Below are positions 3,013 to 15,488 of a stretch of 54,515 bases of DNA, one piece after another. Under the pieces are notes generated by a model. It did not search any database. It was not told where the DNA came from and saw only the letters and a program-made list of their open reading frames with translations. The position numbers and the translations under genes were made by a program. Position 1 is the stretch's first letter. The number at the start of each line of letters is the position of its first letter. Origin of the DNA: a virus; the IMG/VR virus record IMGVR_UViG_3300010885_005167, positions 1 through 54,515 of that record, one strand, 5' to 3'.

Positions 3013-4734
3013 TTATGCCGCAGGTGGAGTTTCAGCAGGAGCACTAGCTGCACCTTCTGCTCCTGGATCTTCAGGTGGCGGCTCAGCAGTTGCAGTGTTT
3101 AATGAGGAAATATCTCCTCCCATTTGATTTGCAGTAATACCAACACTTCTAAGTTCAGCACTTGCTGGTAATGTAGAATCTTCATCTACATTTTCTTCAC
3201 GCCATAATGTTTCGTTTTCAGATACTTCTTCTGCACTTAACCCTAAGAAACGTTTTAAAGCAAAACGTTTGCTGATTTGAGGGATAGCAATCATAGTTCC
3301 AAATGTACTAACTCGTGCAGTATCCATTTCTGCTTGGCGATATGCTGCAAAGTTTTGTGGAGGATTGAACTTAACTTCGAAGATATTACTATCTACATTA
3401 ATACCTTTGTTATGCAGATACAGTTTAAACTCTGTATCAAACTGTTCATTCATTAGGGATTGTAGTCGTTCGCAGTATTTGTTGAACCGTAACTCTTGTA
3501 TATAAGCTGTCCCAACTCGTCCGTCATTGAAGCTGCTCCCGCCATCATCTGCGCCAGTTGGTAAGTAGCTACTAGGAATACGCAGAGCACGAAACAACTT
3601 GTTAGTAAAGTACCTAAGGTCATCAATTTCTCCTAAGTTAGTGCCGCCTGGTAAAGTTTCAACCTTGCTTCCTCTACCCTCTGCGGTCTGAGGGAAGAAG
3701 TAATCTTCGTTCATACTTAATGGATTATATCCTGCATCTACTACACTTGATCCACCACCGGTTGCACTAGGGATACGGCGTTGATTAACTTCATTTTTAA
3801 CACGTTCAACAAATCCCATAGCCAAGTGACTTGGCATATTACCAACGTCAATGTAGAAAATTCTACGCTCAGGCGCACGTTGTATACGATAGATTAAAAT
3901 TGCATCTTCAAGCAATTCTTTTTGTTTGTATACCTTAAACACGCTTTCTAACAAACTAGTTCCAAATGGATAGTTGTTGTCCATACCTTCGCTCATACTA
4001 ATATGAATAACATGTTTAGCATCAATTGCGTATTGATTTTCTGATCTATTAAATCTACTACCGGCAATATTGCTAGGATATGAACCAGTCATTCCTCTAC
4101 TTCCACCAGCGCCGCCCTGCCCTGTAGTAGTACCGCCACCTGCATATTGACTACCGCCACCTGTAATATTACTAGGGTTAATAGCAGTAGTTGCTAGTGT
4201 CTCTAAGTTAGGATTAAAGTCACGAATCATATATTGTTCGGGCTTCTTGCCTTCTGATTCATTAACAATGATACGGTCTACTTTGTTAGGATCAATGTAC
4301 ATCCACGACTGTGTTTCAGGGTCACGTACAAAGAAAGTATCGCCATATTTAAAACTATTACGAACAATTTTAAAAATCCTAGTTTGGAATTTATTCAACT
4401 TAGACCATTGCTGCATGTACTTTCTAATGATTTTAATCTCAGTACTAGTAGCTTGTTCTTTAAAGAATACTCTAAACGGAGTACCGTTTTCTTCGTTAGC
4501 TTGGCTGCAAAACTCTGCTAAAATGTCCAAAGCAGCATTAACTTCACTATCACTATCCATGGTGTCATACTGACCATAACGTTCTAAACGATTAGGATGT
4601 CCTGAATAAACATCTGGAAGATAACTGGAATAATTCCTATGAGCAGGACTAGTATGAGAGCCAGTAGACCCGCTAACAGGACTCAACGTTCCAGATGCGT
4701 TTACGGGAGTAAAATATTTTTTCCAACCAGCCAT
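3013..4734 (-). CDS. 20: Portal vertex protein gp20
   Basis: 573 residues, matching the T4 portal family (~520 residues). It forms the ring at the unique capsid vertex through which DNA enters and to which the neck attaches. Characteristic stretches are the early YSGHPNRLERYGQYDTMDSD, the central SEGMDNNYPFGTSLLESVFK and RAPERRIFYIDVGNMP, then RIPSSYLP. A Gly/Ser/Thr-rich insert lies between about residues 185 and 225, and the C-terminus is Pro/Ala/Glu rich. The start has an AAGG ribosome site 12 bases after the upstream tape-measure-like gene. Confidence 0.96.
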   Translation of the reverse strand: MAGWKKYFTPVNASGTLSPVSGSTGSHTSPAHRNYSSYLPDVYSGHPNRLERYGQYDTMDSDSEVNAALDILAEFCSQANEENGTPFRVFFKEQATSTEIKIIRKYMQQWSKLNKFQTRIFKIVRNSFKYGDTFFVRDPETQSWMYIDPNKVDRIIVNESEGKKPEQYMIRDFNPNLETLATTAINPSNITGGGSQYAGGGTTTGQGGAGGSRGMTGSYPSNIAGSRFNRSENQYAIDAKHVIHISMSEGMDNNYPFGTSLLESVFKVYKQKELLEDAILIYRIQRAPERRIFYIDVGNMPSHLAMGFVERVKNEVNQRRIPSATGGGSSVVDAGYNPLSMNEDYFFPQTAEGRGSKVETLPGGTNLGEIDDLRYFTNKLFRALRIPSSYLPTGADDGGSSFNDGRVGTAYIQELRFNKYCERLQSLMNEQFDTEFKLYLHNKGINVDSNIFEVKFNPPQNFAAYRQAEMDTARVSTFGTMIAIPQISKRFALKRFLGLSAEEVSENETLWREENVDEDSTLPASAELRSVGITANQMGGDISSLNTATAEPPPEDPGAEGAASAPAETPPAA

Positions 4735-4745
4735 TTTATGATACC

Positions 4746-7058
4746 TTAAAAATTAAACAAATTGCCACTTAACGATTTGGTAGCAGATACACCTTGTTTA
4801 GCATGATCAGCGGTTTCTTTACTAGCTCTAAGCAGTTCTGTTATTTGTTTATTTAACAATTGCAACTCGTTAACTACATCTTTTGATTCGTTTGCAGGTG
4901 CTGTAGATGCAGTTTTACCACCCGCTGCCGGTGAATCTGAAACTCCAACTACTTTGTTAACTAGTCCTGCAATACCAGCCGATATTGATTGACCAATGCT
5001 AGGAGTTGCATCTTTAACTTTTTGCATTGCCGCTGCAACACGTTCTAGTTTAGCAGGATCAACACTATTAAGTTTAACCACACCGTCAGCTAACATATTC
5101 ATTGCAAATGCTGCTGGTAATCCAAATACCGCAAACGGGCCAAACGCTAATAAACTAAAACCAAGTTTACCTACACCCGTCGCTGCTGATCCTAATTTGG
5201 CACCGTCTAGTTCTCCAAGTTTTCCTAAACCTTCAGCAAGGGTAGGCAATGCTTTGCCTAATATCCACGAAGCTGCCGCAATACCTGCGCCAATTGCCGC
5301 AATAGCTAGTCCAAATCCAGCAGCACCTAACACTACCATAGGATTTGCAAATGCTCTTAACCCTCCTGCAATACCTTGCATAAATGATTTAATTAAGTCA
5401 CCGGCTCCTTTACCTATAGATCCCATAGCCGGACCTATTTTTCCTAAGCCTTCGGCTACTCCGCCTACTCCTCCGGCAGTGCCCGGTATACGTCCGGCAG
5501 CGCCGCCTGCACCGCCTCCACCACCTGTAATCATATTGCCAATACCGCCAATTGCTGATTTTGCTAACATTGCACCTTTATAGGCACCAAACGCTGCAAT
5601 AAGTCCAATTACAACACCTTTAAAATCTACTAGGGTAGTTACAAGAGAATTCATTATTGGTAAGAAAAAATCAGCAACAGGCAAAATAATGCCATTTAAA
5701 ATAGTTTGTCCTAATTTTTGTAATGCTTCTTGAGTTTTAACAGCATCTTTAGCTTGTGAGTTTTCTCTTGCAGCTTTTTCCTGTGCAGCCTTGGAATATT
5801 GGTCTTCAATACCTTGTCTACCTGCTTGATGATCTTTAGCGGCTAACAATGTAGCATCTTCAATTCCTTTATATACTCCGCCATAAGATCCAACTGCACC
5901 GTTAAATCTCATTAAATTTTTTGAAGTTGCATCTCTAGTAGCTGCTTCATTTTTGCTTAATAATTCACTATCGTTACCGTATTGTTTTCTTAAAGCCAGA
6001 TCTTTCTTAATACCATTAGAGGTGTCATTACTTACTGCTGTTAATTTCCTGCCTGCTTCACCTTGAACTGCTACACCCATAGCGTTTGCTTTAGCAATAT
6101 CCATTCCGCCCTGCCCGTATAATGCACCTGCTCGTTTAACGTTAGCCTCAATAACTTCTCGTTCTTTTACTGATTTACCTGCTAAAAATATTTGGAAATC
6201 AGCAGCTTCCATTTCTGCTTTTTGTTTTTTAGCTATTTCTTCTCTACTTTTTCCAGTAATAGTTGCTAACTGATCAAGCTCTTCCATATATGCTGCTGAA
6301 CTTTTTGCTAACTGATCAGTATTTTGCATTTCTTTTCTATTGCGTCCTCCAGTAATAGAAATATAATCTATCATTCCTTGGTTAACTTGTTCTGAAGTAA
6401 ACCCTAGAGCTCTTAAATTTGTACCTGCTTCGCTACTTAATAATGCATTGCTGGCCTTGGCCCATGACCTTGCACCTTCATCTACCGTTCCACCCATCTT
6501 TGCAAAATTTGCACCATTTGCTTGTACAATTTTACTAAACTCACCCATAGTCATATAAGTGCTTGCTGCTGCTGATCGCAATTCAGTTAAACTTCCGCCA
6601 AAGTTTACACCGGCATTGGTCATTCCCTGATATTGGATAAGCATGGATTCCTGGAATCCAGCTAATTTAGAAAAGCCGCTAGCAACTTCTCCTATACCAA
6701 ATGGTAATTTAGAAAATGCATTGAATACATCACTTGCTTGACCAGTGCCGTCGGCTAGTGTTTTTCCTAATGCTATAAGCGGTGCTGTAGCACTTACTAT
6801 TCCGCCAACTGCTGCGCCGGCCGTGTATGCAGCTTTATTAAATGTGCTTAAACTAGGAGCAGCTTGTTGTAATCCTTGATTTGCAGCAGCAACAGCAGCA
6901 GGGTCTAACCCAGCTTTTTGTGCTAGTTGTGCAATTGCTGCTTTCTGTTCTTTGCTAGTTGCTAGTGATGACTGTAATAGCAATCGTAAGGTTGCTTCTG
7001 TAGCTGCATTGTTTAGCGTTACATTCTCAGTTCCAATTGTGCCGGTTACATCTGCCAT
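4746..7058 (-). CDS. Tape-measure-like tail protein
   Basis: 770 residues with the usual make-up of a phage tape measure: long helical Ala/Gln/Lys regions, a middle section resembling other tape measures (NFGGSLTELRSAAASTYMTM), and at least two long hydrophobic Gly/Ala segments near residues 475-510 and 575-605 that could insert in the host inner membrane during DNA delivery. A Gly-rich linker follows the first one. The tape measure sets tail length and occupies the tail tube. It is encoded next to the portal gene and divergently from the gp26-like gene, unlike T4, where gene 29 lies in the hub cluster. A related internal virion protein cannot be excluded. Confidence 0.65.
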   Translation of the reverse strand: MADVTGTIGTENVTLNNAATEATLRLLLQSSLATSKEQKAAIAQLAQKAGLDPAAVAAANQGLQQAAPSLSTFNKAAYTAGAAVGGIVSATAPLIALGKTLADGTGQASDVFNAFSKLPFGIGEVASGFSKLAGFQESMLIQYQGMTNAGVNFGGSLTELRSAAASTYMTMGEFSKIVQANGANFAKMGGTVDEGARSWAKASNALLSSEAGTNLRALGFTSEQVNQGMIDYISITGGRNRKEMQNTDQLAKSSAAYMEELDQLATITGKSREEIAKKQKAEMEAADFQIFLAGKSVKEREVIEANVKRAGALYGQGGMDIAKANAMGVAVQGEAGRKLTAVSNDTSNGIKKDLALRKQYGNDSELLSKNEAATRDATSKNLMRFNGAVGSYGGVYKGIEDATLLAAKDHQAGRQGIEDQYSKAAQEKAARENSQAKDAVKTQEALQKLGQTILNGIILPVADFFLPIMNSLVTTLVDFKGVVIGLIAAFGAYKGAMLAKSAIGGIGNMITGGGGGAGGAAGRIPGTAGGVGGVAEGLGKIGPAMGSIGKGAGDLIKSFMQGIAGGLRAFANPMVVLGAAGFGLAIAAIGAGIAAASWILGKALPTLAEGLGKLGELDGAKLGSAATGVGKLGFSLLAFGPFAVFGLPAAFAMNMLADGVVKLNSVDPAKLERVAAAMQKVKDATPSIGQSISAGIAGLVNKVVGVSDSPAAGGKTASTAPANESKDVVNELQLLNKQITELLRASKETADHAKQGVSATKSLSGNLFNF

Positions 7059-7141: not shown

Positions 7142-8008
7142 ATGGAAACTACCAATCAGATTCAAAAAAACCCATTAGCAATGTTTATGCGTCAACCAAA
7201 GATTTATATTCGCCTGCCCAGCAATGGAGAATACTGGCCTGAAGGAAGTTTAGTTCCTAGCGAAACTGGTGAATATGCAATATATTCAATGACCGCTCAA
7301 GATGAATTAATGTTAAAAATACCCGATGCATTAATGAATGGACAAGCAATTGTAGATACAATTCAACATTGTGTTCCTAATATTAAAAATGCATGGCACA
7401 CTCCAAACATTGATCTTGATGTTATTTTAATTGCAATTAGACTTGCAACATACGGAGAACAGATGACTACTCCAATTAAGTTTGGAGAATTAGAACTAGA
7501 ATATTCTATCGACCTTAGAAAAGTTATGGATTCTTTACAAAATCAAATTAGTTGGGATCCTATTGTATCAATTAATGATGATCTTACAGTATTTGTTCGT
7601 CCTATCAATTACAAACAAATGTCAACATCTGCAATGCAAGCATTTGAAACTCAGAAAATAATTCAAATGGTCAATGACGAAAAAATATCAGATGCAGATA
7701 AAGTAGAAATATTCAAAGATAGTTTTTCTAAATTAACTGAAGTAACTATTGGAATGATTGGCGCTAGCATTTATAAAATAGATTCTAGTCAAGGTAGTAC
7801 TGATAATCCAACATACATTAAAGAGTTTGTTGATAATGTAGATAAAGAAAAATTTGATAAAATACAAAAACATATTGAAAAGTTGAAAGATCAAAATTCA
7901 ATTAAGCCTATTTCGGTAGCAGTTACAGATGAAATGCGTGAAAATGGTGTTACCGGAGAATCAGTAGACGTACCGTTAACATTTGATGCATCAACTTTTT
8001 TCGTTTAA
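7142..8008 (+). CDS. 26: gp26-like baseplate hub / tail assembly protein
   Basis: 288 residues. The N-terminal stretch QPKIYIRLPSNGEYWPEGS and the following region match the T4 gp26-type family (T4_baseplate) as I know it. T4 gp26 acts in hub assembly. The gene is on the plus strand, preceded by a late octamer and an AGAAAG-like ribosome site. Its last codons run ACT TTT TTC GTT TAA, which forms a -1 slippery heptamer leading into the next ORF, so two products are likely: the 288-residue form and a longer fusion. That arrangement resembles the G/GT chaperones of other tailed phages, so a tape-measure chaperone role is a reasonable inference. Confidence 0.75.
   Translation: METTNQIQKNPLAMFMRQPKIYIRLPSNGEYWPEGSLVPSETGEYAIYSMTAQDELMLKIPDALMNGQAIVDTIQHCVPNIKNAWHTPNIDLDVILIAIRLATYGEQMTTPIKFGELELEYSIDLRKVMDSLQNQISWDPIVSINDDLTVFVRPINYKQMSTSAMQAFETQKIIQMVNDEKISDADKVEIFKDSFSKLTEVTIGMIGASIYKIDSSQGSTDNPTYIKEFVDNVDKEKFDKIQKHIEKLKDQNSIKPISVAVTDEMRENGVTGESVDVPLTFDASTFFV
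7996..8002 (+). promoter_or_regulatory. Candidate -1 ribosomal frameshift site, T_TTT_TTC
   Basis: The zero-frame codons TTT and TTC preceded by T form a perfect X_XXY_YYZ heptamer two codons before the stop of the gp26-like gene. A -1 slip enters the frame of the ORF ending at 8232, and no stop lies between the slip site and that ORF. A possible stimulating stem is CTTGAC at 8020-8025 with GTCAAG at 8047-8052, although its distance from the slip site is longer than usual. Confidence 0.7.
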
Positions 8009-8013
8009 GGCTT

Positions 8014-8232
8014 TTGTATCTTGACTTGCCTGGCATAGAAGACTTGGTCAAGGAATACGAAAAAGATGCAAAAGCCATTAAAAGCGAATTATTAAAACTC
8101 TGCTGGTATATGAGAGGAAGTTTGAGTTATACTGAATCTCACCTTCTTACAGGTGAGGAGCGTGAACTAATTGGAAAACTAATTACTGAGAATCTTAATA
8201 CTACTAAAGAAACTCAAATGCCGTTCTTTTAA
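8014..8232 (+). CDS. Frameshift extension domain of the gp26-like protein (gp51 position)
   Basis: 72 residues if translated alone from the TTG at 8014; more probably the C-terminal part of a -1 frameshift fusion with the gp26-like protein, because there is no ATG and the frame is open back to the slippery site at 7996. The motif LCWYMRGSLSYTESHLLTGEE followed by a C-terminal PFF is of the short type found as the frameshifted part of tail-assembly chaperones. An AAGG just before the TTG would also permit some independent initiation. T4 has gene 51, another hub assembly factor, next to 26, so this may be its counterpart. Confidence 0.7.
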   Translation: MYLDLPGIEDLVKEYEKDAKAIKSELLKLCWYMRGSLSYTESHLLTGEERELIGKLITENLNTTKETQMPFF

Positions 8233-10971: not shown

Positions 10972-11400
10972 CTAAGGTTTTTTAATTATATGGGAGCCAT
11001 GGACACGAACAGATATCTGTCCGTTATAATAGTCTTGTGATTCTAATACTTTGCGGTCGAATTGTTCACAGGCCTCAATGTATGATGTTTCTGCTTTACT
11101 GTTACAGTAGTGTAGTATCTCACGGGTAAACTTGTCTACCCCTATTTGTGCAATATCTGCTGTTAGTTCTACACTGGAACCATAATATGTTTGCCAATCC
11201 GATTCAATCTTGCCTCGGATCTTCTTTTTCTTCTTTGTGCCGTTCTTCAACTTTACAGTCTTGTAGGTCGTTCTACTAAATTTTGCTAATTTTTTGCCAA
11301 CATACTTACGCCCTGTGACTGTATTTGTGATAAGATAAACATATCCTATACAATCATCGGGCAGTTCAGTTACTTCTAAACCTTGATAGGTCCAGGTCAT
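10972..11400 (-). CDS. SegE-like GIY-YIG endonuclease family protein
   Basis: 142 residues. The signature GYVYLITNTVTGRKYVGKK (residues ~19-37) is a GIY-YIG motif, and the later SDWQTYYGSS is usual for the SegE-like phage family. A basic KKKKK run sits between. These small proteins are widespread in T4-like phages; members related to T4 Seg proteins cut DNA near their own locus, but activity is not shown for most. The start overlaps the stop of the preceding histone-H1-like gene (ATGA). The structured non-coding region begins immediately after its TAG stop. Confidence 0.75.
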   Translation of the reverse strand: MTWTYQGLEVTELPDDCIGYVYLITNTVTGRKYVGKKLAKFSRTTYKTVKLKNGTKKKKKIRGKIESDWQTYYGSSVELTADIAQIGVDKFTREILHYCNSKAETSYIEACEQFDRKVLESQDYYNGQISVRVHGSHIIKKP

Positions 11401-13717: not shown

Positions 13718-14727
13718 AGGCTGTTATAAATTTCTAATAAGGTTGATTTATCAAATTGTTCTGATTCGATATTGATTAATTGTTCTGAAACTATTTGATC
13801 AACGCTTTCAAATTGGGTGTCTGGATTGTCATCAATTGTGCCATCCATATTAGTTTTATCTTGTATAAGACTAATTTCGCGAATATCGTAGTCCTTGACA
13901 AATGTTTCTTTAATGAAGTTTGCTTCTTCGTAGCTAATATCAATATCAAGATTTACCTTGATATGCATTTTAGACATCATAATAGTGTCAGCATTATCAA
14001 TTAAGTCACTGAGTTTAACAGTTCTATACTTAGGACAGTCTGGCCAATCAATAAAGTTGGGTTCTCCGCCCCACTCTAAAGTCATCATTCCACGTTTGTC
14101 ATCCCATGTATCTGAGAAGTTATGGGGAAACGCATTGCCAATATATATTACTTTTTTGTTTTGTTGTCGTTTATGGAAGTGGCCACTGAAGATATAGTCC
14201 GGGGCACTAAAGTCTTCTGCTTTAAGTTCACCATGATCGGGCATTTGTACCATAGCATTCATATAAAACTTGGGTAACTCAAAGTGTCCAAACACATATT
14301 TGCTTTTGACATTCTTCATAGTCTTCCACTCGTCGCCTACTAACCAAGGTACTAGGGTGACATCGCCTAGGGTGGTAACATTATCTACGACAGTTACACC
14401 GGGAATATGGCGTCCAAACGCACTACTATGGATGTCACGCTTGTCTTTATAGAATAAATCGTGATTACCTGGAAACCAGTAGAACTGTTCAAATGCCGCA
14501 CCTAGTTTTTCAAGGCAACGAATTGATACATCGAGACTAAACAAGTTGATAGAATTTCTATTGTGATGCCAATCTCCCATAAAAATACAAGTTTCGCATT
14601 CTGCTTTTTTTGATTCTTCAATAAACCAATCTATAAATTCTTCACAATCTTGATTGTGTGTAGCAGAGTTTGATTTTAGGCCGATATGTAGATCAGTCAT
14701 GCAAGCGACTTTTTTAAATAAATTCAT
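13714..14727 (-). CDS. 47: Recombination endonuclease subunit gp47 (Mre11/SbcD-like)
   Basis: 337 residues from the ATG at 14727; T4 gp47 has 339. It is the metal-dependent nuclease partner of gp46. Phosphoesterase motifs are DLHIG (~12-16), GDWHH (~51-55), GNHD (~87-90), GHFE (~147-150) and GHFH (~182-185), giving the usual two-metal site. An in-frame TTG lies one codon upstream, but the ATG overlapping the stop of the homing endonuclease gene (TGATG) is the better start. The close coupling with gp46 supports co-expression of the complex. Confidence 0.97.
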   Translation of the reverse strand: MNLFKKVACMTDLHIGLKSNSATHNQDCEEFIDWFIEESKKAECETCIFMGDWHHNRNSINLFSLDVSIRCLEKLGAAFEQFYWFPGNHDLFYKDKRDIHSSAFGRHIPGVTVVDNVTTLGDVTLVPWLVGDEWKTMKNVKSKYVFGHFELPKFYMNAMVQMPDHGELKAEDFSAPDYIFSGHFHKRQQNKKVIYIGNAFPHNFSDTWDDKRGMMTLEWGGEPNFIDWPDCPKYRTVKLSDLIDNADTIMMSKMHIKVNLDIDISYEEANFIKETFVKDYDIREISLIQDKTNMDGTIDDNPDTQFESVDQIVSEQLINIESEQFDKSTLLEIYNSL

Positions 14728-15488
14728 CAAACTTCCTTTGCTTTATAGCCATTGTAAAATTCTCCATTTTTTGATTTTTCTAATACGGTATTTGCCCATT
14801 GGCCTGTTTGTCGTTGAAAATCACTCTTACTTAAAAAGTATAACACTTTTCCGTCTTCAGTTTCAACCTCTAATCTCTTCGAAACTTTTGTAGCACCCTT
14901 GGCACCATTTGCTTTTGCAATTTTTTTATGCTCTTCTTTATTTTCTTGTTGCCATTTAAGAATTTTATTAACTTTATTTTCTATTGCCCCCGGAACTGCT
15001 TTGTAGTATTCTTTTAATGATTCTGCTCGTCGTGCATTTATTTCTGGAGTAAATGCACGTTTAACCATTTCTTTTCTTTGTTCGGGCGTAGTATTTGCCC
15101 ACTTTGTTTTATTGTATTCTCTAAAACGATCTCCGAGTGTTGTTTTTATTAGAATCATTTCTTCTTCAGTTAGTTTATACCAACCAGTATGCCCTAATCC
15201 ATCCCCACCTCTGCTAGAATTTAAACCATTCTTATAAGAATCGTATTGTTCGATATATTTTATTTCTGCTAATGCCAATTGTCCTAGTGATAAAAATTCT
15301 CCTTCGATGACCTCGTAGGTACACTGGTCGAGGCCATGCTGCTTCATTGCTAAATGTATTTTTCTTTTAGTATTTTTTTGAGATTCTCGACAATGATCTT
15401 TCCACCTTGATTTTTTGTACTCGAGATCAGTGTCCATTCCGATGTAGACTTGATTTAACGGAATTACTGTAATTTTATAAATGAACAT
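14727..15488 (-). CDS. Free-standing GIY-YIG homing endonuclease
   Basis: 253 residues. The N-terminal FIYKI ... VYIG (residues ~2-16) is the GIY-YIG catalytic start, followed by SRWKDHC with the expected Arg (~32) and IKYIEQYDS in the C-terminal part of the nuclease. Residues ~110-215 contain basic helical repeats typical of modular DNA-binding (NUMOD-like) segments, and the end (DFQRQTGQWANTVLEKSKNG) resembles a small helix-turn-helix binding module. It is wedged between gp55 and gp47 with a one-base overlap onto gp47 and has its own late octamer upstream, the usual setting for a mobile Seg-type gene that does not interrupt a coding sequence. Confidence 0.88.
   Translation of the reverse strand: MFIYKITVIPLNQVYIGMDTDLEYKKSRWKDHCRESQKNTKRKIHLAMKQHGLDQCTYEVIEGEFLSLGQLALAEIKYIEQYDSYKNGLNSSRGGDGLGHTGWYKLTEEEMILIKTTLGDRFREYNKTKWANTTPEQRKEMVKRAFTPEINARRAESLKEYYKAVPGAIENKVNKILKWQQENKEEHKKIAKANGAKGATKVSKRLEVETEDGKVLYFLSKSDFQRQTGQWANTVLEKSKNGEFYNGYKAKEV

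Follow-up and report, generated by a model that had tools for sequence, protein, structure and literature searches.

Predicted −1 frameshifting at a gp26-like tail assembly chaperone gene of a phage related to the jumbo T4-like phages

Introduction

Vladimirov and colleagues reportedly found that frameshifting in the genes of tail assembly chaperones (TACs) is conserved in several groups of T4-like phages. The TACs of T4-like phages were identified in that study (Vladimirov, Gautam & Davidson 2022, Virology 566:9-15, as cited in PMC10885494 and PMC12846349). According to these papers T4 itself has separate genes for the short and the long chaperone. PMC10885494 describes some T4-like phages in which two chaperone genes, one short and one long, take the place of a frameshift, and PMC12846349 mentions poly-T slippery sequences as a known feature of T4-like TAC-N genes, both with reference to Vladimirov et al. 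2022. Frameshifted T4-like chaperones, which the sequence-only reading of the present locus was not aware of as a standard annotation, had already been published.

Here we describe a gp26-like gene in a viral DNA of 54,515 nucleotides (IMG/VR record IMGVR_UViG_3300010885_005167; the whole stretch that was analysed is referred to as the window). On the sequence evidence the phage is related to T4 and the gene very probably encodes its tail assembly chaperones, TAC-N and a frameshifted TAC-NC; the gene is kin to those of jumbo T4-like phages. It shares with the T4-like TACs described in the excerpt of PMC12846349 the protein family and a poly-T −1 slippery site at the end of TAC-N. Other tailed phages are known to use such frameshifting, and it has been described in some of the T4-like ones, so that we see in this locus a well-supported further example and not a new type of system. 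What the present analysis adds is this lineage, the covarying stem and the cousins with a +1 frame, whereas the kind itself is already known; a literature search on frameshifting in jumbo-phage chaperone genes found nothing on point.

Results

Layout of the locus

The following features are used throughout (coordinates of the window):

7142..8008, + strand: TAC-N, gp26-like gene, 288 aa (zero frame, predicted short form); based on the ORF, PF12322, phrog_150 and relatives
7996..8002, + strand: slippery heptamer T_TTT_TTC, in phase; based on sequence and conservation in relatives
8003..8008, + strand: 6-nt spacer GTTTAA, containing the zero-frame stop TAA at 8006-8008
8009..8022, + strand: 5′ arm of the putative stimulatory stem, GGCUUUUGUAUCUU; based on covariation and alignment fold
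8063..8076, + strand: 3′ arm of the putative stimulatory stem, AAGAUGCAAAAGCC; based on covariation and alignment fold
8002..8232, + strand: TAC-C, domain encoded in the −1 frame (76 codons and a stop), attached to TAC-N through the predicted slip
Predicted TAC-NC junction peptide in the window: ENGVTGESVDVPLTFDASTFFR

The 3′ end of the gp26-like ORF reads ACT TTT TTC GTT TAA, and T_TTT_TTC at 7996-8002 has the correct X_XXY_YYZ phase relative to the gp26-like frame, just as the sequence-only reading had claimed. That reading had also described the −1 frame as an open ORF of 72 codons that carries LCWYMRG and lacks an ATG. The frame is indeed without a stop from 7987 to 8232 and contains the motif, but 72 is the count from the TTG at 8014, and the absence of an ATG extends only to the M of CWYMRG, the first in-frame ATG, which lies half-way through the domain. 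After a tandem slip, decoding is predicted to restart at CGT 8002-8004; the fusion would therefore consist of 287 zero-frame and 76 −1-frame residues, i.e. 363 aa. Among the 46 ORFs of at least 100 aa on both strands of the window, the gp26-like ORF is the only one that combines an in-phase XXXYYYZ motif near its stop with a −1 extension past the stop (221 nt).

Conservation of the slippery heptamer

All 44 relatives of the first set carry the heptamer in phase, at a distance of 13-28 nt from the zero-frame stop. In a non-redundant set of 44 genes, which takes in cyanophage ACG-2014g, Stenotrophomonas phage Moby and Vibrio phage Va3, T_TTT_TTC is found in phase in 43, including these three, and the exception, XacN1, has T_TTT_TTT. 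The codon 5′ of the heptamer is always NNT, represented by nine different codons that encode T, N, S, D, H, R, A or Y. Measured against the codon frequencies in the rest of these genes, this constancy alone has a probability of about 10^-12 and the constant TTT.TTC choice one of about 10^-29, values that treat the sequences as independent although they are related; the other Phe codons of these genes are 341 TTT and 150 TTC. Since the preceding NNT is constant across different amino acids, amino-acid conservation cannot account for the heptamer pattern; judged by its conservation in phase, the heptamer at the 3′ end of the gp26-like gene is not a chance occurrence.

A covarying stem downstream of the heptamer

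In the alignment fold a long-range stem, formed by 8009-8022 and 8063-8076, begins exactly 6 nt 3′ of the heptamer, which falls in the range of about 5-9 nt of stimulatory −1 structures. Pairing and covariation were scored on a gapless alignment of 25 sequences: the stem has 14 pairs with 89.7% paired cells, as compared to 31-55% if the partner is slid by 1-3 columns, 8 of the 14 pairs show compensatory changes in which both sides are altered, and the covariation is 0.289 versus 0.114 in shuffled alignments, the score being reached in 0 of 500 shuffles. Among 151 scanning windows over gene and junction this is the sole strong consensus structure (−11.8 versus −0.65), and the sequence of the window itself folds at z −4.7.

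Phosso, Atu_ph07, PA5oct and XacN1 have their own stems of 10-11 bp, all starting exactly 6 nt past the heptamer, and a marine group (L039, L041) has a shorter hairpin of 8 bp, which by itself is not significant. In the RaK2/121Q/CBB group, where the heptamer is present, a convincing conserved stem was sought and not found, so that a stem is not required throughout. A RaK2-like register with 80% pairing was dropped, as it consists partly of G-U pairs with few changes. A search for an AGGAG-type upstream stimulator, as in dnaX, found none, the motif scan yielding scattered short matches only; no Rfam family fits the stem, and the excerpts of PMC10885494 and PMC12846349 contain no mention of a long-range covarying stem. 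The alignments strongly support the view that heptamer, spacer and stem constitute a textbook −1 frameshift cassette.

The −1 frame domain

For 22 sequences of equal length the −1 frame yields pS 0.66 and pN 0.34, its third codon position varies most, and both other frames are interrupted by stops in 22/22. In most sequences an RxxLL motif comes after the slip point, in most cases 5′ of any ATG. By these substitution patterns, the −1 frame encodes a conserved domain. TAC-C alone gave no family match in profile searches (Pfam, PHROG), the C part gave only chance-level matches to PDB sequences, and the TAC-C structure model gave weak matches, all to uncharacterised phage proteins.

As to start codons, the PA5oct −1 ORF contains no ATG, GTG or TTG past the slip. 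In a few relatives the junction does contain an ATG, but all of these (Phosso, Atu_ph07, 121Q, Va3 and Moby) keep the heptamer; where an ATG stands at the junction (L001, L004, L020, L031 and L052) a separately started C product is possible. No relative was found to combine a well placed ATG and a ribosome site with the lack of a slippery sequence.

The downstream ORF is annotated differently in public records. In cyanophage ACG-2014g (L066, KJ019071.1) a 'gp51 base plate hub assembly catalyst' of 31 aa is annotated at 3277-3372, which is only the tail end of the −1 domain from an internal ATG; the full −1 domain is joined to gp26 via T_TTT_TTC at 3172. A hypothetical protein of about 50-70 aa is annotated 3′ of the gp26-like gene in enterobacterial and Xanthomonas jumbo phages (L049-L055, L057), with starts at an ATG that lies either at the junction or inside the conserved domain of the −1 frame, and the records of PA5oct, Paride and RaK2 leave the −1 ORF without annotation. 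In Ackermannviridae phage 0507-KN2-1 (L067, NC_022343.1) the −1 frame continues uninterrupted beyond the end of gp26 (3229-3405); the C domain looks similar, but there is no XXXYYYZ site.

Relationship to T4 gp26 and gp51

Profile matches of the gp26-like protein are to PF12322 (30.7 bits against a cut-off of 24.5; E 3e-7) and phrog_150 (E 3e-11), and its viral-structure matches include baseplate hub proteins, e.g. of SP-15 (E 3e-10). Its named relatives come nearly all from large T4-like phages, e.g. RaK2, GAP32, CBB, 121Q, PA5oct, Atu_ph07 and Phosso. T4 gp26 and T4 gp51 each match both PF12322 and phrog_150. In hhalign the fusion profile is collinear with the gp51 family, reaching residue 247 of 249 (E 2.5e-5); the same comparison without the C domain gives E 4.9e-4, and the C domain alone is marginal (E 0.044). 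As the fusion is collinear with the gp51 family to its end, we equate the predicted fusion with gp51 and the short form with gp26. The equation of the downstream ORF by itself with gp51 is thereby corrected, since it is the whole fusion that aligns with the gp51 family.

The gp26-like N part has no relative among PDB sequences, and Foldseek of the N model against the PDB gave no match with E <= 0.001. HK97 gp13 (2OB9; VIA-align Z 5.6, rmsd 4.7, 98 of 107 residues) was set aside as a fold match of the N domain as it is tied with unrelated rows of equal Z.

Gene neighbourhood and variation within the family

Next to the gp26-like gene lies a further feature:

4746..7058, − strand: gene for a virion-type protein of 770 aa, running divergently to TAC-N; putative tape measure protein, judged by position and length

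In most of the fetched jumbo records the gp26-like gene is, as in the window, divergent from the gene for a virion protein of 700-830 aa beside the portal gene, and in most jumbo relatives a homolog of the 770-aa neighbour is found between portal and gp26-like gene; the PA5oct homolog is MS-detected, according to its annotation. Profile searches gave no support for the 770-aa protein as tape measure protein, the match to PHROG being weak; its position and length suggest that it may have this role. A tail-tube gene was not found beside the gp26-like locus of the window. The order sheath, tube, gp26, small ORF, tape measure is found in Flavobacterium phage immuto and Bacillus phage SP-15, and Mel-JY01 has the same order with an unnamed long gene at the tape measure place. 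Elsewhere in the window, GIY-YIG-type endonuclease-like ORFs, recognised by eye, at 14727-15488 (−) and 10972-11400 (−) flank gp46/gp47-like genes on both sides.

In Mel-JY01, immuto, RM378 and SP-15 (L048, L061, L062, L063) the second ORF is in the +1 and not in the −1 frame. The shift-site sequences are TTT TTT TGG in Mel-JY01 and RM378, TTT TTT C in SP-15 and TTT CTT TGG in immuto, and the arrangement points to a +1 (or −2) shift among members of this family.

Discussion

In the mechanism that we propose, most ribosomes would terminate at TAA 8006-8008 and release TAC-N (288 aa, gp26 type), whereas a fraction would pause at the 3′ stem that starts 6 nt past T_TTT_TTC. Both Phe tRNAs may then re-pair one base back, and translation in the −1 frame would yield TAC-NC (363 aa), the putative equivalent of T4 gp51. 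If the analogy to lambda gpG/gpGT holds, the tape measure protein would be covered by TAC-N, and the minor form would use its TAC-C domain to bring in subunits of the tail tube. That ribosomes slip at the heptamer, and at what rate, we infer from sequence. The production of a short gp26-like form and a fusion by a −1 slip, as put forward in the sequence-only reading, is strongly supported by the heptamer, the −1 domain, the stem and the collinearity with gp51. The suggestion that these assembly factors are tape-measure chaperones likewise stands as the best reading: TAC-N and TAC-NC may well function as chaperones, a role supported by the gp51 link and by the fact that in immuto and SP-15 the gene sits between the tube and tape measure genes.

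Of the alternatives, the one that survives best, although it is very unlikely, takes the downstream ORF for a gene of its own, whose small product arises through translational coupling to the zero-frame stop or re-initiation there, from TTG 8014 in the window and from an ATG in some relatives. It would fit the ATG within the first codons of L001, L004, L020, L031, L052, L068 and L069, the TTG at codon 5 in 14/22 sequences and the many records in which only an internally started hypothetical protein is annotated. However, codon 5 is TTA, TTT or CTG in 8/22, the sole SD-like AAGG of the window is 3 nt from the TTG and within the stem region, and PA5oct offers no start codon of any of the three kinds. 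Moreover, a separate start gives heptamer and stem no reason for conservation, and in T4 the N and C parts form one uninterrupted protein. Still less probable is transcriptional slippage, in which slipping of RNA polymerase at the T6 run gives mixed mRNAs whose translation is normal. The run is present, and XacN1 and some +1-type relatives even have T7 runs, yet six Ts are short for efficient polymerase slippage, the X_XXY_YYZ phase is preserved in every −1 case and the stem starts at the 6-nt spacing expected of a ribosomal stimulator. Least credible of all is conservation of the Phe-Phe codons and the −1 frame for protein reasons only, without any programmed shift, for although the Phe pair is kept at the gp26 C-terminus even in T4 gp26 (EFFELL), where the slippery codons are absent, the TTT TTC choice and the T in third position of the preceding codon are constant, in contrast to the other Phe codons of these genes, and the stem covariation speaks against amino-acid-only conservation.

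Programmed −1 frameshifting thus being the preferred reading of the locus, we regard it as rather probable that one chaperone family of large T4-like phages reaches its long form by several routes: in one clade a −1 shift with a stem (loop of about 40 nt) that starts 6 nt past the heptamer, in another clade the heptamer without an obvious stem, an apparent +1 shift in Mel-JY01, immuto, RM378 and relatives of SP-15, and the split genes of T4. If so, the stem would be a type of stimulator so far undescribed for phage chaperone genes. Our findings assign a probable role to the gp26 gene ('baseplate hub') that many large T4-like phages carry, account for the small 3′ ORF that is left unannotated, or started at an internal or junction ATG, in the examined records, and provide a testable, strongly supported frameshift cassette. 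They also bear on the old puzzle of the T4 assembly factors gp26 and gp51, as gp51 corresponds to the predicted frameshift fusion, fixed as a gene of its own.

How the locus relates to known systems may be summarized as follows. T4 gp26 matches the short form and the gp51 family, one uninterrupted protein, is collinear with the fusion, but T4 has two separate divergent genes where the window has one gene and a predicted shift. The TAC of Vandenendeviridae phage Adele, as described in the excerpt of PMC12846349, has an open, conserved −1 frame after a T-rich slippery motif that ends TAC-N, just like the present locus, but it belongs to another phage group, its motif is GTTTTT and no stem is described in that excerpt. 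With lambda gpG/gpGT the locus has in common a short form and a −1 fusion with a C-terminal domain, the slip occurring just before the stop, a likeness of architecture. In lambda, however, the tape measure gene follows the pair within one operon, whereas the candidate tape measure gene of the window is divergent, and the covarying 3′ stem distinguishes the window locus from gpG/gpGT.
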